A stretch of DNA of 64,000 nucleotides, from contig CACNVR010000002.1 in NCBI GenBank assembly GCA_902623975.1, forward strand, positions 1 through 64,000, read 5' to 3'. How positions within the stretch are numbered: position 1 is the stretch's first letter; the number at the start of each line of letters is the position of its first letter. Under the pieces are notes generated by a model. It worked only from the letters and a program-made list of their open reading frames with translations, did no database searches and was not told the origin of the DNA. The translations under genes and the position numbers were made by a program. The stretch comes from an uncultured Pelagibacteraceae bacterium (GTDB lineage: Bacteria > Pseudomonadota > Alphaproteobacteria > Pelagibacterales > Pelagibacteraceae). Below, in pieces: positions 8,752 to 61,657 of this stretch.

Positions 8752-9890
8752 TGAAAAGGATTGGCATCATTGGAGCTGGTATTTCTGGGTTATTCATAGC
8801 TAATTTATTTAAAAGAAATTCAAATTATCAAATTACTGTTTTTGAAAAAAACCACTCAATTGATTTAGAGGGTGGTTATGGAATTCAATTATCAGTGAAT
8901 AGTGTAAAGCTTTTAAACAAAATTGGATTTGATAATTTTCAATATGATAAAAAGTGCAATCCAGACAAAATAAATTTTTACTCTATTAAGGATCCAAATA
9001 AAATATGTGATTTAAGAATTTCTGATTTTAATACCGAAGACAGTAAGTACACTACTATGAGAAGATCTGACTTAGTAGATTTTTTAAAAACTGATTTAGA
9101 AAATTTAATTAAAACTAATCATAATATTTCCAAGATAGATCAAGAAAATCGAAAGATCCAACTTACTTTTGAGAATAATGAAATTTTTGAATGTGATTAT
9201 TTAATTGTTTCAGATGGGATTTTTTCAAAAAGTAAAAATCTTATTTCAAACAATCAAATTAAACTGAGATACAATAATACGTTGGCTATAAGAGGGATGA
9301 TACCTCATTATTCGAAAATTGATCATAAAAATATCTCATTATTTTTAGGTCCCAATTTTCATCATGTAATTTATCCCGTAAATCTTAACGGAGATTTAAA
9401 TTTTATAGCAATAATGAAATATAATCTTTCCTCAAACGAACTAAAAAACTACTCATTATTTAGTGATAAAAATTTTATTAAAGGCATCTTGGATAATGTC
9501 CCATTAGAAATGAAGAAATTTTTAAATGGAATTAAGGAATTAAAAATATTCCCAGTATTTATAAGTGAAAATTTTTATAAGACAAAAAATAACAATATTC
9601 ATTTTATAGGTGATGCTTTTTTTGCTTTTTCACCATCATTTGCTCAAGGAGCAACTCAGTCTATAGAGGGTGCTTATGAATTGTTTAAAAGTATAGAAAA
9701 TAATACAGAAAGTGATTTTTTTAAAAAAAGAGTTAATAAAACTAAAATGGTTAGTAACAGATCAAAATTTAATCAATTTGCTTTTCATTTATCTAGTCCT
9801 GTAACGAGGTTTTTTAGAAATATCTTTTTGAAAAGATTAGTAAAAAACAAAAAGTTTTTAGAAAGTTATCTTGGTAAAATTTATAGATAA
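8751..9890 (+). CDS. FAD-dependent monooxygenase (UbiH / p-hydroxybenzoate hydroxylase fold)
   Basis: The 379-residue protein begins with the FAD-binding motif [17 protein letters not shown] and has [15 protein letters not shown] in the middle. The second FAD motif is [29 protein letters not shown], which matches the GDAxH-type loop of aromatic hydroxylases with the usual His/Pro region altered ([10 protein letters not shown]). A likely reaction is NAD(P)H-dependent hydroxylation of an aromatic or isoprenoid substrate; the substrate cannot be read from sequence. It is coupled to mutY by a TAATG overlap, which says little about function. The end overlaps ccrM, convergent, by 10 nt. Confidence 0.8.
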
Positions 9891-10960
9891 CTTTTATTAA
9901 TAAGGAATTTTTGTCTCAAATTATCTATTGGCACAAAAGAATTACCTAATTTGTAATGCCAAAAAGTCCATCCATTGCAACTTTCAGCACCTAAGATTGT
10001 AGCCGCTACTTTGTGGATTGAGCCTTCAGTTTGTGCATGCTTAATACTGCCATCAGCCATAATTTTTGCACTGATTTTCTTTTTATTATCAAAAATAGTC
10101 GTACCTGGTTTAATTATTCCTAATTCAACCAATGACCCAAACGGTATTCTTGGTTTGGATCTACCATTTTGTAAAGTATCCAAATAATCATTCTCTATAG
10201 GTTTTGTTTTTCTTAATCTTTGTTCGGCAGCTTTAAAATATGTTATTTCTCTTTCAATGCCATAGTAAATTCTTCCTAATTTTTTAGCAACTGTAGCTGT
10301 TGTTCCGGATCCTAAAAAGGGATCTAAAACTAAATCATTTTTATTTGAAGTCGCTAATAAAATTCTGTGAAGAAGAGCTTCTGGTTTTTGTGTGGAATGC
10401 ACCTTTTTACCATTATTTTTTAATCTTTCAGAACCATTACAAATTGGTAATTCCCAATTAGATCTCATTTGAAGATCGTCATTCAAACACTTTAAGGATT
10501 GATAATTAAAAGTGTATTTTGATTTTTCAGATTTAGATGCCCAAATTAATGTTTCATGAGCATTTGTAAAACGTGTTCCTCTAAAATTAGGCATCGGATT
10601 TTTTTTGTTCCAAATGACATCATTTAAAATCCAAAAACCCAAATTTTGAATTGCTGTACCAACTCTAAAAATATTGTGGTAACTACCAATTACCCAAATA
10701 GCTCCATTTTTTTTTAAAATTCTTTTACATTCACTCAACCATTGATAAGTAAAGTCATCATACTTTTTAAAATTTTCAAATTGATCCCATTTATCGTTTA
10801 CTGCATTTACTTTAGTTCTATCAGGTCTTGTTAATTCACTTTTAAGTTGTAGATTGTAAGGGGGATCAGCAAAAATTAAATCAAAACTTTCATTAGGAAT
10901 TTTTTTGAGCTCCTTTAAACTATCTCCATTTATTAATTTATTTTTTAAATTAGATTTCAT
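9881..10960 (-). CDS. ccrM: Cell-cycle regulated DNA adenine methyltransferase (CcrM type, GANTC)
   Basis: This 359-residue beta-class N6-adenine methyltransferase has catalytic DPPYNLQL (about 32-39) first, a central [10 protein letters not shown], and the AdoMet motif [20 protein letters not shown] (about 214-233). The C-terminal extension of about 90 residues ([16 protein letters not shown] ... [11 protein letters not shown]) is the CcrM-specific domain that contacts DNA. CcrM methylates GANTC and times alphaproteobacterial cell-cycle transcription. No restriction endonuclease lies nearby, so this is a solitary methyltransferase. Its promoter (separate entry) carries two GANTC sites. GANTC specificity is inferred from family. 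Confidence 0.93.
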
Positions 10961-10973
10961 TTCGTAAAACTAA

Positions 10974-11002
10974 ATTAGACTCTAAAAAGATTCTTGGGTC
11001 AA
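10974..11002 (-). promoter_or_regulatory. ccrM promoter with two embedded GANTC sites
   Basis: On the minus strand, TTGACC (11002-10997), a 17-nt spacer and TCTAAT (10979-10974) form a near-consensus sigma-70 promoter. The predicted start falls about 7 nt before the ccrM ATG, so the transcript would be nearly leaderless. GAATC (10993-10989) lies in the spacer and GAGTC (10982-10978) overlaps the spacer/-10 boundary, 11 bp apart. In Caulobacter two GANTC sites in the ccrM leader lower transcription when methylated, so autoregulation is plausible here. Confidence 0.7.
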
Positions 11003-11079
11003 CCTACGATTGAATTATTTGAATTTAAATTGTATAGGTACTTTTTGATATAACAACATGTAGTGTTTCTACGTGAAAC

Positions 11080-11640
11080 CTATTTCATTTTGTTGATAGG
11101 AGAAAAAGTTCTCCTATGATGGGAGGTGATTCCTAGATTTCTAATTGCTTTTAAATGATGTTTGGTTCCATAGCCAAAATTTTTATCCCAATCATAATCC
11201 TTAAATTTTTCACTTAATTTTGTGATTTGTTTATCTCTTGAAACTTTAGCAATAATTGATGCTGCTGATATTGATGGTATTTTTGTATCCCCTTTAATAA
11301 TCGGAATTAATTTATAGTTTTTCATTAAAGGTATTTTATTTCCATCAATTAAAACTAAAGTAGGTTTTTTTTTCAGTTTTCTCAAAGCTCTTTCCATGGC
11401 TAATAAACTTGCATTTAAAATATTCATTTTTTCTATTTCCTTAACTGAGGCCCTACCAATAGCCCAAACTGAATTTCTTTTTATGAGTTTTGACAAAATT
11501 TCCCTTTCATTTTTTTTTAACTTTTTTGAGTCTTTTAGGAAAGAAACATCAATTGATTTATTTAAAATTACTGCTGCAGCATAAACTGGTCCTATTAAAC
11601 TCCCTCTTCCAACTTCATCAACACCAGCTACAATTCTCAT
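11080..11640 (-). CDS. rnhB: Ribonuclease HII
   Basis: The 186-residue enzyme starts at ATG 11640 as MRIVAGVDEVGRGSLIGPVYAAAVIL, which contains the catalytic DE-GRG motif. ASIIAKVSRDKQI carries the second conserved block, and GYGTKHHLKAI the C-terminal one. RNase HII nicks RNA-DNA hybrids at single ribonucleotides. The track's longer start (11697) lies inside the upstream glycosylase gene. Stop of that gene and start of rnhB share one base (TAATG). The region after its stop holds a weak 5-bp hairpin (GTTTC/GAAAC) and no U-tract. Confidence 0.95.
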   Translation of the reverse strand: MRIVAGVDEVGRGSLIGPVYAAAVILNKSIDVSFLKDSKKLKKNEREILSKLIKRNSVWAIGRASVKEIEKMNILNASLLAMERALRKLKKKPTLVLIDGNKIPLMKNYKLIPIIKGDTKIPSISAASIIAKVSRDKQITKLSEKFKDYDWDKNFGYGTKHHLKAIRNLGITSHHRRTFSPINKMK

Positions 11641-12359
11641 TATATTCTTATATTTAAATCTTGAATTTTGTTTCTTATTTCTTTCAAATCTGCCCATGAA
11701 TATTTCTTGAATTCTGGATATCTTATTAAGTACGATGGGCTGTAAGTAATTATTAATGGATAAGTTTTATTTTTTAAAATAATCTCTTTCCATTGGCCTC
11801 GTTCGTTGGAAATTTTACCATTAAAACCAGTGATTGCTTCCATAGCTGTACTTCCCATCAAAATCAATATTTTTGGATCTATAATTGATATATGCTCCTT
11901 CAAAAAAATTGAATATCTTTTAATTTCTGATGAACTAGGTTTTCTATCGTTTGGTGGTCGAAAATTGACCGAATAAGTTGTGTAAATTTTTTTACGTTGA
12001 ATTTCAATTGCTAAAAGCATCTTTTCTAAAAGTTGACCAACATTTCCTTCAAATGTAAGTCCTGAATTTTCCTCATCAAGTCCGGGAGCCTCTCCAATTA
12101 TCATTATCGGGCTGTTTAATTCTCCACTACCCATAATAATTTTTTTACTATGATTTTTTAAATTACAATTATCAATTGAATCAACTTTTTTCTTAAGATC
12201 GTCTAATTTATCCCTTTTTGAAAAAGTCTGATCATTCTCAAATCCATTAGTTATCTGAAATCTGTTGATGGGTTTTTTTTCAAAGGTAAATTCTTCCTCT
12301 ACAGACCTTATTATCTCTAGAGTATAATTAGCATTTTGATTTAAAATCTTTTTAGTCAT
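11640..12359 (-). CDS. Uracil-DNA glycosylase, family 4-like, lacking most Fe-S cysteines
   Basis: The 239-residue protein carries the family-4/5 motif MIIGEAPGLDEENSGLTFEGNVGQLL and the second motif YSPSYLIRYP in place of the usual HPSxLLR. It should excise uracil from DNA. The four cysteines that hold the 4Fe-4S cluster in canonical family-4 enzymes are mostly gone: DNCNLKNHSKK retains one, and the usual KCRPP reads NFRPP. I use ATG 12359 (MTKKILNQN); the track's GTG at 12368 would nearly abut the divergent TPR gene. Only 11 nt separate the two divergent starts. Confidence 0.82.
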   Translation of the reverse strand: MTKKILNQNANYTLEIIRSVEEEFTFEKKPINRFQITNGFENDQTFSKRDKLDDLKKKVDSIDNCNLKNHSKKIIMGSGELNSPIMIIGEAPGLDEENSGLTFEGNVGQLLEKMLLAIEIQRKKIYTTYSVNFRPPNDRKPSSSEIKRYSIFLKEHISIIDPKILILMGSTAMEAITGFNGKISNERGQWKEIILKNKTYPLIITYSPSYLIRYPEFKKYSWADLKEIRNKIQDLNIRI

Positions 12360-52644: not shown

Positions 52645-52675
52645 TCGTTTTGATTCATTTTCATGATTAAAACGA
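52645..52675. repeat. Inverted repeat between rnpB and mraZ
   Basis: TCGTTTTGAT and ATTAAAACGA form a 10-bp stem with one G-U pair and an 11-nt loop. It may end the rnpB transcript, although no U-run follows, or serve as a binding site. The stretch 52619-52701 otherwise shows no gene. Confidence 0.4.
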
Positions 52676-53244: not shown

Positions 53245-54708
53245 ATGACAATTAATTTTAAAATACCGGAAATAAAAGAATTACAACCAAGATTATTGGT
53301 AATGGGGATCGGCGGAGCAGGAGGAAACGCTATTAATGAAATGATCGATAATGGTATGCAGGGGGTAGAATTTATTGCTGTAAATACCGATGCACAAGAT
53401 TTAAAACATAGTAAAGCAAAATCAAAAATACAGATTGGTCTCAATTTAACGAAAGGTTTAGGAGCAGGTGCAAAACTTGATATAGGCCAAGCAGCTGCTG
53501 ATGAGTCTTTAAACGATATAGTAAATATACTACAGGGTGCAAATATGGTTTTTATAGCTGCAGGCATGGGCGGTGGCACAGGAACAGGTGCTGCTCATGT
53601 AATTGCAAGAGCCGCAAAAGAGTTAAATATACTTACTGTGGGAGTTGTAACTCTTCCTTTTTTATACGAAGGTCCATCAAGAATGAGAAGAGCTCAACAA
53701 GGATTAGAGGAACTTAGAAGACATGTTGATACAATTATAGTGATACCTAATCAGAATTTATTTAAAATCGCAAATGAACAGACAACATTTGAAGAGTCAT
53801 TTAATCTATCAAACAATGTTTTAATGCATGGAGTTCAAAGCATAACAGATTTAATGGTTAGACCTGGTTTAATTAATCTTGATTTCGCAGATGTCGAGTC
53901 AGTGATGGCGTCGATGGGTAAAGCAATGATGGGAACGGGAGAAGCTGAAGGTGAAAACAGAGCTATGCAAGCAGCCGAAATGGCTATTAGCAATCCATTG
54001 ATTGATGACTATACCTTAAAAGGAGCCAAAGGCTTATTAGTTAACATTACAGGTGGAAAAGATTTAAAACTTTTTGAAGTTGACGAGGCTGTAAATAAAG
54101 TGCGGGCTGAAGTAGATCCTGAGGCAGAGCTAATTATTGGCGCAATCACAGATCCAGAGTTAGATGGAAAAATGAGAGTATCAATAGTTGCAACATCTTT
54201 AGATGGCCAACAACCAGAGACAAAATCTGTGATTAATATGGTTCATCGTATTCAAAATCGTAACACAGGATATTCAGATTTTACTTCAACTAATGGATCA
54301 GCATCATTCTCTTTTTCAAACGCAAGTAATAATCCAATCAGTGAAGGCGCTAATGCACTTAAACTGGACAATGAGATTATTCAGGAGAATGTTAATAATG
54401 AATCTATTAATGATGTAAATAATCAATACCATCAGGAATTGGTAAAAAATCAAGAAGCAGAAAATATTGTTGAAAATGTTTCTAATGAAAATGAAGTATC
54501 ATTCGCTCAGGAAGCTATGGATACATCAGAAACAGATAAGATGCCTACAAGTGATCTAAAAGAGTTTGGTGTTGATGTAGATGAGCCAGATTTGTTTAAT
54601 TCTGATAATCAGAGTTTACCTCCAGAAGATTTGTTAAAATTATCAGATGAAGGTCATGAAGAGGATGATCTTGAAATACCTGCATTTTTAAGAAGACAAA
54701 AAAATTAA
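53245..54708 (+). CDS. ftsZ: Cell division protein FtsZ
   Basis: The 487-residue tubulin homologue has [15 protein letters not shown], the GTP signature [35 protein letters not shown], and synergy loop region NVRAEVD-type [32 protein letters not shown] long acidic Asn-rich linker (about 340-470) leads to the C-terminal peptide [11 protein letters not shown], which binds FtsA/ZipA-like partners. Its position between mraZ and rsmH is unusual: most dcw clusters end with ftsA-ftsZ. Confidence 0.98.
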
Positions 54709-54726
54709 TGGTCTTCGAGAAAATAA

Positions 54727-55737
54727 ATGGAAGCCACCATGGTATCGGATATTCCAAAGCACTATCCGGTACTGCTAAATGAATTAATTAGCATTATTTC
54801 CCCTCAGCATGGTGGCACATTTATTGATTGCACATTTGGTCAAGGTGGTTATAGCAAAAAAATTTTAAGTTATAAAAATACTAAAATTATTGCGTTTGAT
54901 AGAGATCAAAAAACAAAAATTAGTGCCGATAAAATATCAAAAATATTTTCTAATAGATTTATTTTTAAAAATAAAAAATTTAGTCAACTAGAAGATTTAA
55001 AATTAAAAAATGAAAACATAAAAGCAGTAATTTTTGATCTTGGATATTCTTATTCACAAATAAAAGATTTAGATAAAGGCTTGTCTTTTTATTCAACTGG
55101 AAATTTAGATATGAGAATGGGACTTAATAGTTTTTCAGCAGATGAAGTAGTTAATAAACTAAATCTGAAGGAATTGGAGAAAATTTTTAAGTATTTTGGA
55201 GAGGAAAAGGAGGCAAAAAAAATTGCAACTAAAATTGTGAAGGAAAGAAAAATAAATAAACTTAATACTGAAAGTTTGGTTCAAATAATTGAAAAAACTA
55301 AAATAAAAAAAAATTTTAAAACTCATAGTGCTACAAAGATATTTCAATCTCTTAGAATATTTGTGAATAGAGAAATAACAGAATTGATTAATGGATTGAT
55401 TGCTGCTGCAAAAGTTTTAAAAAAAGATGGTATTTTAGTTGTTATAACTTTTCATTCAATTGAGGACAAGATAGTAAAATATTTTTTTAAAAGTTTGTCC
55501 GAAAAAAAAAGTATTTCTAGATACTTACCAAAAATTGATCAAGCTGAAACTTTATTTAGAATGATTGAAAAAAAACCTATCAAACCTTCGGATAAAGAAA
55601 TTAAAGAAAATCCACCATCGCGTTCTGCAAAACTTAGATATCTAATTAAGAAAGAAAATTTCTATAATTTTGAAACAGATATATTTAAAAAGTTCAATCA
55701 TTTAGTGGAAATAGAAAATATTGGAAAAAAATTATGA
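54727..55737 (+). CDS. rsmH: 16S rRNA (cytosine-1402-N4) methyltransferase
   Basis: The 336-residue protein reads [36 protein letters not shown] (AdoMet site), [50 protein letters not shown] and [18 protein letters not shown]...[11 protein letters not shown]. All RsmH/MraW signatures are present. ATG 54727 or 54739 ([13 protein letters not shown]) may be the start. It overlaps ftsL by 4 nt. Confidence 0.95.
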
Positions 55738-56039
55738 AGAAATTTTCGATAATTTTTTTAATATTTTTTTTAATTTTGTTCACAGCGATTATTAAAAATT
55801 CAACTAAAAGAATAGATGATGAAATCTTTGGACTTAAGGAAAATATCAGAATTTTAAAGAAAGATTTTGAAAATATTAAATTAGAGCATGATTATCTAAG
55901 TTCTTCTGAAAGATTATTAAAATTTCAAGACCTTTATTTTGAAGATTTACTGATTAAAAAAAGTATTGATGAAATGAATTTACTTAATCAAAAATCAAAT
56001 TTTTTTGAGATAAAAGCATTTAAATTTACAAATGAATAA
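55734..56039 (+). CDS. ftsL: FtsL-like division protein
   Basis: The 101-residue protein has an N-terminal membrane helix ([17 protein letters not shown]) and a periplasmic coiled coil ([40 protein letters not shown]). FtsL sequences are barely conserved, so the call rests on topology and position between rsmH and ftsI. It overlaps ftsI by 8 nt. Confidence 0.85.
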
Positions 56040-57726
56040 TAAAAAAGATTTAAGAATTAAAATTGAAAATCATGATGAAGAATTTTTGTTTCAAAAAAAT
56101 CTATCGAAATTAAACATAAGTTTTAATCGTATCTCATTTATCTTTTTTATTTTTTTTATAATTTGCCTGATATATTCAATTCATCTGACACACCTTGGTT
56201 CACGGAAAGTAAAATTTGAAATTAATGATTATAATAAATATTATTCGAATAAACTTTATAGAGCAGATATTATCGATCGAAATGGTAATTATTTAGTTAA
56301 AACAGTTAGTTCAATAGATATTGGAATAAGTACAAAAAAAATAATTGATAAAAAAAAATTATTACTAAATCTTAAGTATATTTTCCCAAACAAAGATTAT
56401 AAATCAATTCAAGAAAAAATTGATGCAAAAAAATTTTTTTGGTTTGAAAAAAAAATATCTGATGAAAATTATGAAAAAATTATGAAATTGGGTGATAAAT
56501 CAATCCAACCACAAGAAAGGTTAGTAAGAATTTATCCTTCAAAAAATTTATTCAGTCATATAATTGGTCAAATAGATGATAACAATAATGGTATTTCGGG
56601 TTTAGAAAAGTCGCTGGATGAAGATTTAAAAAAAAGTAAGGAACCAATAAAACTTTCTGTTGATAGGGATATTCAATTTTTGATCAGAAATGAACTTATA
56701 AAGTTTAATAATATTTTTGATACAAAAGGAAGTGCAGCAATACTTATGAATGTTGATAATGGAGAAATTTTGTCTCTTATATCGTTACCTGATTTTGATC
56801 CCAACAAACGAAAAAAAATTTCAGATTTAGACTACATAAATAGAGCTACAAAAGGTATTTATGAGTTTGGGTCTGTATTTAAAACCTTCACACTAGCAGG
56901 TGCTTTTGATAAAAAAATAATTCAACCTGAAACAAAATTTTTAGATTTACCGAAAACTTTAAAATGTGCAGGATTTAATATAAAAGAATATGATAAAGAT
57001 ATTCCTGAAGACTTAACAGCGGAACAAATTTTGATTAGGTCCGGAAATATTGGCTCAGTAAGAATTGCTCAAAAATTAGGAGAGAAAAAATTTAAATCCT
57101 TTCTTTCAAAAATAGGGCTCCTTGATAGAATTGATTTTGATATTGAAGAAGTGGGTACGCCAATGAAGTTTAATTGGGGAAAATGCCCACTAGCTACAGC
57201 ATCATTTGGCCATGGCATAACAACAACACTACTTCAATTAGCTAAGGCCTATTCAATAATTGTTAATGGAGGTTTTGACATTAAACCCAGTCTAATAGAA
57301 AATAATAATAAAGAAAAAAAAAAAAGAATTTTAGATAAAAAAGTTTCAAATAAAATATTACCAATTTTAAGAAAAGTAGTAACTACAAAAGAGGGTACTG
57401 CATCATTAGCAAATATAAAGGGCTACGAGGTAGGAGGAAAAACGGGTACTGCTGAAAAAATTACTGTTAGCGGCGGTTACTCTAAAAAAAAAATAAATTC
57501 TTTTGTTTCAATTTTTCCTTCCTCTAAACCGAAATATGTTTTGGCTTTAATGTTAGATGAACCAAAAACAAATAAAAATTATATTTACCATTATAGAGAT
57601 GGATCAAACATTAAATATAAGGGCACGCCATTCAATACTGCTGGATGGACTACAGTTGAGGTTGCTGGTCAAATTATAGAAAAAATTGGGCCTATTTTAG
57701 CCACAAAATATAGTGAGATTAATTGA
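56032..57726 (+). CDS. ftsI: Penicillin-binding protein 3, division transpeptidase
   Basis: The 564-residue protein has a cytoplasmic tail, a membrane helix (about 33-55), a pedestal domain and the transpeptidase. Catalytic Ser281 and Lys284 lie in YEFGSVFKTFTLAGAF, SGN in IRSGNIGSVRIAQ, and KTG in EVGGKTGTAEKI. It cross-links septal peptidoglycan with FtsW. It overlaps ftsL; murEF begins 2 nt after its stop. Confidence 0.95.
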   Translation: MNNKKDLRIKIENHDEEFLFQKNLSKLNISFNRISFIFFIFFIICLIYSIHLTHLGSRKVKFEINDYNKYYSNKLYRADIIDRNGNYLVKTVSSIDIGISTKKIIDKKKLLLNLKYIFPNKDYKSIQEKIDAKKFFWFEKKISDENYEKIMKLGDKSIQPQERLVRIYPSKNLFSHIIGQIDDNNNGISGLEKSLDEDLKKSKEPIKLSVDRDIQFLIRNELIKFNNIFDTKGSAAILMNVDNGEILSLISLPDFDPNKRKKISDLDYINRATKGIYEFGSVFKTFTLAGAFDKKIIQPETKFLDLPKTLKCAGFNIKEYDKDIPEDLTAEQILIRSGNIGSVRIAQKLGEKKFKSFLSKIGLLDRIDFDIEEVGTPMKFNWGKCPLATASFGHGITTTLLQLAKAYSIIVNGGFDIKPSLIENNNKEKKKRILDKKVSNKILPILRKVVTTKEGTASLANIKGYEVGGKTGTAEKITVSGGYSKKKINSFVSIFPSSKPKYVLALMLDEPKTNKNYIYHYRDGSNIKYKGTPFNTAGWTTVEVAGQIIEKIGPILATKYSEIN

Positions 57727-57728
57727 AG

Positions 57729-60572
57729 ATGTTATTAAAAGATTATTTTCCAAACATTGATAGAAAAATAAGTAATATTTTTTTTTCAGGAATTTCTTTT
57801 AACAGCTCTAAAGTAAAAAAAAATGACATCTTTTTTGCGATTAAAGGTAATAAAACTGATGGAAATAAATTCATACCCTTTGTAATTAAAAGAGGGTGTA
57901 AAATAATAGTATCTGAGAGAAAATCTAAAAAATTTCAAGATAAAATTCATTTTATTTATACTAAAAATATTAGAAAATTGTTGGCCGAAGTAGCATTTAA
58001 AATTTTCAAAAAAAGACCGAGAAATCTTGTTGCTATTACAGGGACTAACGGAAAATCATCTATTGCGAATTTCTATTATCAAATATTAGATTTAAATAAA
58101 AAGAGTGTAGCTTCTATTGGAACTCTTGGGGTTAAATCAAAAAAATTAAAAATGAATTTGTCTAATACAACAGTAGATCCAATACAATTAGGTAAAATAT
58201 TGAGAAAACTTAAAGATTTTAAAATAGAAAACGTAGTCTTGGAAGCATCAAGTCACGGTCTGAAACAAAACAGATTGGATGGTTTAAAATTTAATTCATC
58301 AATATTTACCAATTTATCTCAGGATCATTTAGATTATCATAAAAATCTAAATGCTTATTTGAGAGCGAAACTTTACTTGTTTGAAAATTTGGTAAAAAAA
58401 AGAGGTAATGTCATAACAGATGAAAAAATACCAGAGTTTGAAAAGATTAAAAAAATTACAATTGAAAAAAACTTAATACTTAACACTCTTTCTGATAAGA
58501 AAAATAAATTTGAAATCATATCTCATAATTTTAAAGGAAATTCTCAACAACTGAAAATCAAATTCAATAATTCAATAAAAAATATTGAACTAAATTTAAT
58601 AGGAAAAATACAAATTAAGAATGTATTAATGGCAATTATTGCTGCAAAAAAAAGTGATGTTAGTATTGATAACATTTTAAAAGTTATTCCAAAACTCAAA
58701 CCTGTTGAGGGTAGATTTGAAATTATTGGTAAAATTAAAAATAAGTCAAAAGTTGTACTTGATTATGCACACACACCAGAGGCCCTAAAAACGTGCATTG
58801 TAAATTTAAGAGAACAATTTCCTAATAAGAAAATTAATATTTTATTTGGATGTGGTGGTAATAGAGATCGAGATAAAAGATCAAAAATGGGTTACATTGC
58901 TCATAAATATTCAGATGATATTTATTTAACAAATGATAATCCAAGAAATGAAAATCCCTCTAAAATAAGAAAAGATATTAAGAGAGGAATAAAAAGAGAC
59001 AATATAATAGAAATTTCCAATAGGGCCAAAGCGATAAGGAAAGCAATCAAAAATTTATGTACCGGTGAAATTTTATTAGTAGCTGGTAAAGGTCATGAAA
59101 ATACTCAAGAAATTGGAAAAAAAAAAATTTTTTTTTCAGATAAAAAAATTATTTTGGATGCAATTAAAGTTAAAAACTTTGATTTATCAAATAACTTAAA
59201 ATTAGATATTCTCAAAGAGTTGTCTAGATATAGGAAAATTCCCTCTTCAACATACTTTAACAGTGCAAGAATAAATTCTAAAGAAGTAAAAAAAAATGAT
59301 ATTTTTTTTGCTATAAAAGGTAAAAAAAATGATGGAAATAAATTTGTAAAACAATCACTTAAAAAAGGTGCATCGATAGCAATCGTTAATAGAATTCAAG
59401 GCAATCTTGATATTGAGCGTCAAATAAAGGTTAAAAATACTCTTAAATTTTTAACAGATATTTCGAGGGTTTTTCGAAATAATATTAGTACAAAAATAAT
59501 TGCTATAACTGGAAGTTGTGGAAAAACAACTCTTAAAGAATTATTAAGTAGTTCATTAAAAAAGGTTTCTAAAGTCGGTATGTCACCAAAATCTTATAAT
59601 AATAAATTTGGTGTGCCTCTTAGTCTTTTAAATTTAAATCAAAATGATAATTATGGAGTTTTGGAGATTGGCATGGATAAAAAAGGAGAAATTGATTATT
59701 TATCGAGTATTATTAAGCCAGATATTAGTGTAATTACCAACATAAATTATGCTCATGCAAAAAATTTTAAAAATATTAAACATATCGCTTTAGCAAAGTC
59801 CGAAATTATAAATAATACTAATCCTGATGGTTTTGTTGTGTTAAACGCTGATGATAAATTCTATAAATTTCATGAAAAAATAGCTCTAGATAGGAACTTA
59901 AATGTAACTTCTTTTGGTATTAAAAATAGAAATGCAGATATAAAATTTCTCAGTATTAAAAAAAGAGGAAAAAATTTCAAGATTAATCTTAAAGTTAGAA
60001 GTTTAAAAGTATATTTTTTTATTTCAAATGATTTCACAAGTCACATCTATAATATTCTAGCAACGATAGCCGTAATGAATATCCATATAAATGTGTCTCA
60101 ATTAAATAAAAATAATTTTTTAAATTTTCAAGCCCCACAAGGTAGGGGGGATTTTTTAAAAATAAAAATGAATAAAAAAATTATTAATCTAATAGATGAA
60201 AGTTATAATTCTAATCCTCTATCATTAAAAACAGCAATACTTAATTATGAAAAGATTGAAACGAAAAAATCAAAAAAATATCTTTTACTAGGAGATATGT
60301 TGGAACTTGGAAGTCATTCAAAAAAATTACATGAGGCTATTGCACCCATAATAAATAAGGCTAAAGTTGACAAAATCTATGTAAAAGGAAACAGGGCAAG
60401 ACTTATATTTAATAAATTATCAAAATCGAAGAAAGGTAGAGTTTTATTTAATAATAATCAAATAATCGAAATGATTAAAAATGATTTAAATAATGATGAT
60501 TATTTAATGATAAAAGCCTCAAATGCGACAGGTTTTAATAAGATAGTTAGAGATATAAAAGGTTTTAATTAA
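57729..60572 (+). CDS. murE-murF: MurE-MurF fusion: UDP-MurNAc tripeptide synthetase and D-Ala-D-Ala adding enzyme
   Basis: One open frame of 947 residues encodes two Mur ligases. MurE (about 1-490) has ATP loop AITGTNGKSSIANF (near 105), DYAHTPEALK and TNDNPRNENPSKI, whose DNPR box marks meso-diaminopimelate addition. MurF (about 495-947) has ITGSCGKTTLKELL (near 595), EIGMDKKGEIDYL and DESYNSNPLSLKTAI. Both halves keep catalytic motifs, so both should work. ATG 57729 is chosen; the track starts at TTG 57723 inside the ftsI stop. The stop shares one base with mraY (TAATG). Confidence 0.93.
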   Translation: MLLKDYFPNIDRKISNIFFSGISFNSSKVKKNDIFFAIKGNKTDGNKFIPFVIKRGCKIIVSERKSKKFQDKIHFIYTKNIRKLLAEVAFKIFKKRPRNLVAITGTNGKSSIANFYYQILDLNKKSVASIGTLGVKSKKLKMNLSNTTVDPIQLGKILRKLKDFKIENVVLEASSHGLKQNRLDGLKFNSSIFTNLSQDHLDYHKNLNAYLRAKLYLFENLVKKRGNVITDEKIPEFEKIKKITIEKNLILNTLSDKKNKFEIISHNFKGNSQQLKIKFNNSIKNIELNLIGKIQIKNVLMAIIAAKKSDVSIDNILKVIPKLKPVEGRFEIIGKIKNKSKVVLDYAHTPEALKTCIVNLREQFPNKKINILFGCGGNRDRDKRSKMGYIAHKYSDDIYLTNDNPRNENPSKIRKDIKRGIKRDNIIEISNRAKAIRKAIKNLCTGEILLVAGKGHENTQEIGKKKIFFSDKKIILDAIKVKNFDLSNNLKLDILKELSRYRKIPSSTYFNSARINSKEVKKNDIFFAIKGKKNDGNKFVKQSLKKGASIAIVNRIQGNLDIERQIKVKNTLKFLTDISRVFRNNISTKIIAITGSCGKTTLKELLSSSLKKVSKVGMSPKSYNNKFGVPLSLLNLNQNDNYGVLEIGMDKKGEIDYLSSIIKPDISVITNINYAHAKNFKNIKHIALAKSEIINNTNPDGFVVLNADDKFYKFHEKIALDRNLNVTSFGIKNRNADIKFLSIKKRGKNFKINLKVRSLKVYFFISNDFTSHIYNILATIAVMNIHINVSQLNKNNFLNFQAPQGRGDFLKIKMNKKIINLIDESYNSNPLSLKTAILNYEKIETKKSKKYLLLGDMLELGSHSKKLHEAIAPIINKAKVDKIYVKGNRARLIFNKLSKSKKGRVLFNNNQIIEMIKNDLNNDDYLMIKASNATGFNKIVRDIKGFN

Positions 60573-61657
60573 TGTTATATCAATTTTTATTAAATTTCGT
60601 AGATACTTATGGGTTTTTAAACGTTTTTAAATATCTAACATTTAGAACCGGCTTATCGGTTTTTACATCCTTAGTATTAGTCCTTATAATTGGTGGCCCA
60701 TTTATAAAATTTTTTTCAAATCAAAAAATATTTAATCCAATACGTAATGATGGACCAGAGGATCATATTGTAAAAAAAATAGGCACCCCAACAATGGGTG
60801 GTCTTATAATTTTATTAGGATTGTTAGTATCAGTGTTATGTTGGGGAGATCTATCAAATATCAATATACTATTTTGTATATATATTGCTATTTCTTTTGG
60901 ATTACTTGGGGCTTATGACGATTATAAAAAAATTAAGTTTAGCAATTCCTCAGGAATTACCTCAAAATTAAAAATATTTTTACAATTTATTTTAGCAATT
61001 GTAGGAGTTAGTTTTTATGTTTATTTTGTAGATTACCAAGATATTACTAATTTATATTTTCCATTTTTTAAAAATTTAATTATTAATCTTGGGTGGTTTT
61101 TTATACCTTTTTCAGTTTTTGTTATAATTGGTTCATCTAATGCAGTAAATCTTACTGATGGTTTAGATGGATTAGCAACAGTTCCAGTAATATTAGTTGC
61201 AGCTTGTTTTGCCTTCATAAGTTATGTTACTGGAAATATAGTTTTTTCTGATTATCTCCAAATACCTTATATTGAGGGAACAGGAGAAATTGCAATTTTT
61301 TGTGGTGCAATAATAGGTTCTTGTTTAGGATTTTTGTGGTTTAACGCTCCACCGGCTAAAATTTTTATGGGTGATACTGGCTCGTTATCACTAGGTGGAT
61401 CATTGGGTGCGGTAGGGATAATCACTAAACATGAAATTGTATTAGCTATAACGGGTGGACTTTTTGTTCTTGAGGCTGTCTCAGTTATGGTTCAGGTCAT
61501 TTCTTTTAAACTTACAGGAAAAAGAATTTTTAAAATGGCACCGATACATCATCATTTTGAGAAGAAAGGCTGGCCAGAGTCAACTGTTGTAATAAGGTTT
61601 TGGATTATTTCAATAATTTTAGCTATGATTGGCTTAGCTACCCTCAAATTAAGGTAA
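60572..61657 (+). CDS. mraY: Phospho-N-acetylmuramoyl-pentapeptide transferase
   Basis: The 361-residue polytopic protein has PTMGGLIILLGLLVSVL, GAYDDYKKIKFSNSSGI (catalytic Asp-Asp), SSNAVNLTDGLDGLATVP, FMGDTGSLSLGGSLGAVGIITKHE and APIHHHFEKKGWPESTVVIRFW. It makes lipid I on undecaprenyl phosphate in the inner membrane. TAATG junctions flank it on both sides. Confidence 0.98.
   Translation: MLYQFLLNFVDTYGFLNVFKYLTFRTGLSVFTSLVLVLIIGGPFIKFFSNQKIFNPIRNDGPEDHIVKKIGTPTMGGLIILLGLLVSVLCWGDLSNINILFCIYIAISFGLLGAYDDYKKIKFSNSSGITSKLKIFLQFILAIVGVSFYVYFVDYQDITNLYFPFFKNLIINLGWFFIPFSVFVIIGSSNAVNLTDGLDGLATVPVILVAACFAFISYVTGNIVFSDYLQIPYIEGTGEIAIFCGAIIGSCLGFLWFNAPPAKIFMGDTGSLSLGGSLGAVGIITKHEIVLAITGGLFVLEAVSVMVQVISFKLTGKRIFKMAPIHHHFEKKGWPESTVVIRFWIISIILAMIGLATLKLR

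Follow-up and report, generated by a model that had tools for sequence, protein, structure and literature searches.

A conserved pair of GANTC sites in the ccrM core promoter of SAR11 bacteria, with a probable role in methylation feedback on ccrM

The ccrM locus and its promoter

The window analyzed here is a stretch of 64,000 nucleotides (contig CACNVR010000002.1, positions 1-64,000) from a Pelagibacteraceae genome of the SAR11/Pelagibacter type, GCA_902623975.1. It contains ccrM on the minus strand (9881-10960, ATG at 10960), which encodes a GANTC adenine methyltransferase of 359 amino acids and was identified by a profile match and by orthologues across the class. The protein matches the model NF050803 with E=3e-173 and 575.6 bits, a score that does not reach the curated cut-off of 830 for the Caulobacter-type enzymes of that model. 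The upstream neighbor on the same strand is rnhB (RNase HII, 11080-11697).

The ccrM promoter reads TTGACC-CAAGAATCTTTTTAGAG-TCTAAT on the minus strand from 11002 to 10974, where CAAGAATCTTTTTAGAG is the 17-bp spacer. The -35 element TTGACC occupies 10997-11002 and the -10 region TCTAAT occupies 10974-10979. Two GANTC sites, 11 bp apart, are located in this core. Site 1 (GAATC, 10989-10993) is within the spacer and site 2 (GAGTC, 10978-10982) overlaps the start of the -10 region, with which its last two bases are shared. The first-pass annotation had described this arrangement, including the contact between the second site and the -10, and its coordinates were confirmed. An alternative -10 register on the same strand is TAATTT (10977-10972), which would follow a 19-bp spacer. 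Only 16-17 nt separate site 2 from the ccrM ATG in the SAR11 alignment, so the ccrM transcript would be nearly leaderless and a leader position like that of the Caulobacter sites is impossible.

A further element, TTCAATC-N3-RGTTGAC (minus strand, 10998-11014), is specific to SAR11, where it is near-invariant, and contains an imperfect dyad, TCAA-N7-TTGA, that overlaps the -35 element. Its only exact match in the genome is at ccrM. This block is a candidate factor site or upstream element. The dyad resembles a CtrA box (TTAA-N7-TTAA) placed over the -35; a role as a CtrA site was discarded, since the search described below found no CtrA. Directly behind the rnhB stop there is also a palindrome, GTTTCTACGTGAAAC (11065-11079), which is parS-like with one extra base and is recognizable in many SAR11 relatives. 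It is possibly a degenerate parS or part of a terminator. A parS site as the account of this palindrome was set aside, the best parS-like site being elsewhere. The distance from ccrM to the parS-like site is approximately 209 and 226 kb in two complete relatives, provided that the contigs are circular, so ccrM would replicate roughly one third of the way through.

Conservation of the two sites

GANTC is avoided in the window (92 observed versus 182 expected from shuffles), and such avoidance is a known feature of genomes with CcrM (PMC3973325). Only four GANTC pairs within 20 bp occur in the 64 kb, and a pair 9-13 bp apart is present in 0.33% of 120-nt blocks. A single pair alone is approximately a 1-in-300 event; it is the conservation of the pair that excludes chance. 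Of the intergenic GANTCs in the window, only the ccrM pair and two sites in tRNA T-loops are conserved in both complete relatives of the same genus. When the genome was searched for promoters with TTGAC as the -35 box, ccrM was the sole place that matched both TTGAC-N2-6-GANTC and TTGAC-N13-16-GANTC. The latter pattern has 12 other matches, ten of which were placed, all inside reading frames, and the rest (L207 and L214) are near contig ends. Elsewhere in the window, a 7.2-kb stretch (54405-61576) that spans the cluster of division and cell-wall genes (the end of ftsZ, mraW, ftsI, murE/murF and mraY) is free of GANTC. Two intergenic GANTCs upstream of ftsZ, at 52652 and 52704, are not conserved in the one relative that can be aligned there.

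The SAR11 comparison used 56 independent SAR11-type ccrM loci, with CcrM at least 74% identical. Conservation of both sites in SAR11, which the first-pass annotation had named as one way to check its claim, was found in 49 of these loci, while the dinucleotide-shuffled upstream regions gave 0 (the shuffle test set held 57 loci, as the genome studied here was counted twice). TTGAC is present in all 56 loci, a GANTC 2-5 nt behind it in 52, and a GANTC at exactly offset 20, counted from its first T, in 53. The 11-bp spacing did not hold strictly, being 11 bp in 33 loci and 12 bp in 16. Site 1 takes the forms GAATC, GACTC and GATTC, and its position differs by one base from clade to clade. Site 2 is fixed in position, the letters between the sites are variable, and at the -10 region GAGTCTAAT is at least 98% conserved. 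Thus, GANTC is constant while the spacer letters, the middle base and the site 1 register vary, as would be expected from selection for the methylation site itself. One control motif, AGNCT, also peaks in SAR11, but its peak there is due solely to its position inside GAGTCT. In a sister genus of the SAR11 family (loci L095 and L096), gcrA is kept and both promoter-core GANTCs are lost, and three SAR11-like loci (L054, L055 and L057) are likewise without GANTC in the ccrM promoter core. In two other loci (L052 and L053) the second GANTC is displaced from offset 20 to offset 25, which puts it 16 bp from site 1. Many SAR11 loci carry a further GANTC approximately 33 bp before site 1.

The wider comparison covered 105 non-SAR11 alphaproteobacterial genomes from 64 families. 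TTGAC is present at ccrM in 94 of these genomes, at least one promoter-core GANTC in 71 and both sites in 42, and 43 of the 64 families hold at least one genome with a core GANTC. For example, the core arrangement is found in Qipengyuania, Erythrobacter, Novosphingobium, Croceicoccus and one Rhodobiaceae genome. Among the genomes compared, it is absent from Hyphomicrobiaceae and Methyloligella-type loci. Counted from the first T of TTGAC, site 2 starts at exactly offset 19 in 48 of the 105 genomes; no palindromic control motif built from the same letters exceeds 10 of the 105 at any single offset. These 48 genomes were aligned by TTGAC and GANTC only, and 100% of them have A at offset 24 and T at offset 28. 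These invariant positions correspond to -11A and -7T of a sigma70 -10 behind a 17-bp spacer, which places the final base of site 2 at -12. Neither position was used for the alignment, and both support the promoter assignment. At site 1 all four middle bases occur in the non-SAR11 genomes, and selection therefore seems to act on GANTC itself. Many non-SAR11 loci (e.g., L104, L117 and L133) have a third GANTC, often TTGATTC, approximately 15-17 bp before TTGAC.

The SAR11 site 2 is shifted downstream by one base. The -10 is then either TCTAAT, with a C at -11, or TAATTW, following a 19-bp spacer; both options would be poor for sigma70 alone. The core arrangement is found across much of the class and is probably ancestral; the leader sites of Caulobacter are therefore likely the exception. 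According to the first-pass annotation, the sites of the Caulobacter leader had been moved into the promoter core here. With the core form in 71 of the 105 other genomes, the reverse is probably true.

Possible readers of the promoter sites

GcrA is encoded in the genome (PF07750, E=1.8e-38). Its N-terminal 45-49 residues match structures of the Caulobacter GcrA DNA-binding domain (5yiu/5yiv/5yiw/5z7i), and the stretch RNAVIGK-HRL-LS in this part is nearly unchanged relative to Caulobacter GcrA. The C-terminal part matches 5yix, the GcrA-sigma complex (PMC7403470). As a cofactor of sigma70, GcrA accelerates the formation of open complexes at methylated promoters (PMC7403470), and in Caulobacter it activates at such promoters (PMC7403470, PMC3667746). 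Caulobacter promoters with a GANTC between the -10 and -35 elements are switched on 40-60 min into the cell cycle, and of the GcrA-enriched cell-cycle start sites only 31% have a GANTC within 50 bp upstream (PMC4287350). CtrA was not found in a PF00486 scan of the genome, which is 85% complete, and of two complete relatives. One of these relatives (G281) has four OmpR-type (PF00486) proteins. They comprise a PhoB, a lone winged-helix protein and two further response regulators, and none is CtrA. This absence agrees with PMC2877005 and PMC7987155. In the cultured Pelagibacter NP1, 3477 of 3482 GANTCs (99.86%) are fully methylated (PMC9516812).

The reading favored here, with a probability of about 0.58, is that ccrM is autoregulated through a conserved core promoter used by GcrA and sigma70 and read by its methylation. 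CcrM would methylate both promoter sites. GcrA, carried on sigma70 domain 2, would bind the methylated spacer site or sites and help RNA polymerase open a ccrM promoter that would otherwise be weak, owing to the C at -11 or the 19-bp spacer. Transcription of ccrM would then be best from methylated or hemimethylated DNA, and the timing signal would be the passage of the replication fork, which turns methylated into hemimethylated sites, independent of CtrA. Feedback of CcrM on its own gene is probable and GcrA is its most likely route; as to its sign, activation at methylated sites is the more likely option. A promoter dependent on methylation for its full activity could lock itself off, and the favored reading therefore has to assume some basal activity. 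The link between GcrA and the promoter architecture is circumstantial. Several results count against the favored reading. L095 and L096 lack the core sites despite having gcrA. In the non-SAR11 set the core sites are not significantly associated with gcrA (63 of 91 genomes with gcrA, 8 of 14 without detectable gcrA, p=0.37). The low share of GANTC-bearing start sites in Caulobacter (31%) also speaks against it. The first-pass annotation had suggested a minimal direct feedback loop. Methylation feedback on ccrM is indicated by our analysis, but a direct action is only one option since GcrA is encoded.

The main rival is direct repression by methylation, which is considered unlikely. Here, GcrA would play no part and the loop would be negative: methyl groups at the edge of the -10 and in the spacer would weaken sigma70 binding, so that ccrM fires when newly hemimethylated and stops after CcrM has acted. 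Such a loop would account for the architecture in the eight genomes without detectable gcrA, and site 2 does touch the -10 in SAR11 and in other genomes. Stephens 1995, cited in PMC3973325, reportedly proposed that Caulobacter ccrM is shut off with the help of methylation at two sites 3' of its promoter. Similarly, the Agrobacterium gcrA promoter is GANTC-rich, CcrM represses gcrA, and full methylation has been proposed to limit sigma-factor recruitment (PMC11514494). Unlike in Agrobacterium, no GANTC was present in the stretches examined upstream of SAR11 gcrA. However, repression by methylation alone leaves the retained GcrA unused, and activation is the typical outcome at GcrA-type promoters whose -10/-35 interval contains a GANTC (PMC4287350, PMC7403470).

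It is improbable that the GANTCs are incidental parts of a binding site for another regulator, for example a reader of the TCAA-N7-TTGA dyad or of an 11-bp direct repeat. The block over the -35 in SAR11 is highly conserved and unique in the genome, as such a site might be. However, TTCAATC-N3-RGTTGAC is absent outside SAR11 while the GANTCs persist there with a free middle base, and the likeness of the dyad to a CtrA box has no reader, CtrA not being among the OmpR-type proteins of G281. Shared ancestry or chance, with no regulatory role for the pair, would fit its loss in some SAR11 relatives and in other lineages, but is very improbable given that GANTC stays where its surroundings change and that, tRNA sites aside, no other intergenic GANTC of the window is conserved in both relatives.

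Relation to known systems and significance

Like the GcrA-dependent methylated promoters of Caulobacter (ctrA P1, mipZ and podJ P2), the SAR11 ccrM promoter is of the sigma70 type, has GANTC within or close to the -10/-35 interval and is found in a genome that encodes GcrA and CcrM. It differs from them in that the target is ccrM itself, the two sites are fixed, site 2 overlaps the -10, and the SAR11 case is known from sequence. In Caulobacter, ccrM is driven by CtrA (PMC2877005) and its GANTC sites are 3' of the promoter. In SAR11 the pair is in the promoter core and not in a leader, and no CtrA was found. The gene and the presence of two GANTCs close by are nevertheless the same in both (PMC3973325, citing Stephens 1995). 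A CcrM-based memory circuit built in E. coli (PMC5458116) is also comparable, since GANTC methylation in the operator of a ccrM operon sustains its own expression; unlike the SAR11 promoter, this circuit is engineered and acts by excluding a zinc-finger repressor.

In PMC7987155, ccrM has already been inferred to be a core GcrA target across alphaproteobacterial orders, with the predicted GcrA control of ccrM lost in Caulobacterales. That study counted extended GANTC motifs from -200 to +100 in 13 species/orders, including Ca. P. ubique. Its counts ignore promoter position, unlike the present analysis, and the available parts do not describe the fixed two-site core geometry. No description of this geometry was found in the limited set of papers searched.

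A bolder extension of the favored reading, which is doubtful, is that the GcrA/CcrM module of SAR11 has shrunk to nearly a self-loop. In this case, ccrM would be the main or only promoter-core target of GcrA, its full expression would need its own methylation, and a heritable positive epigenetic loop would be timed by fork passage without CtrA.

Whether CcrM controls its own gene, and in what way, has been a question since the 1990s and was addressed chiefly in Caulobacter. The ccrM promoter of Caulobacter now appears to be atypical. The core promoter with two sites, retained in a large part of the class, offers a precise and testable element for this question. SAR11, which are among the most abundant ocean bacteria, provide a natural case with GcrA and CcrM in which no CtrA was found.
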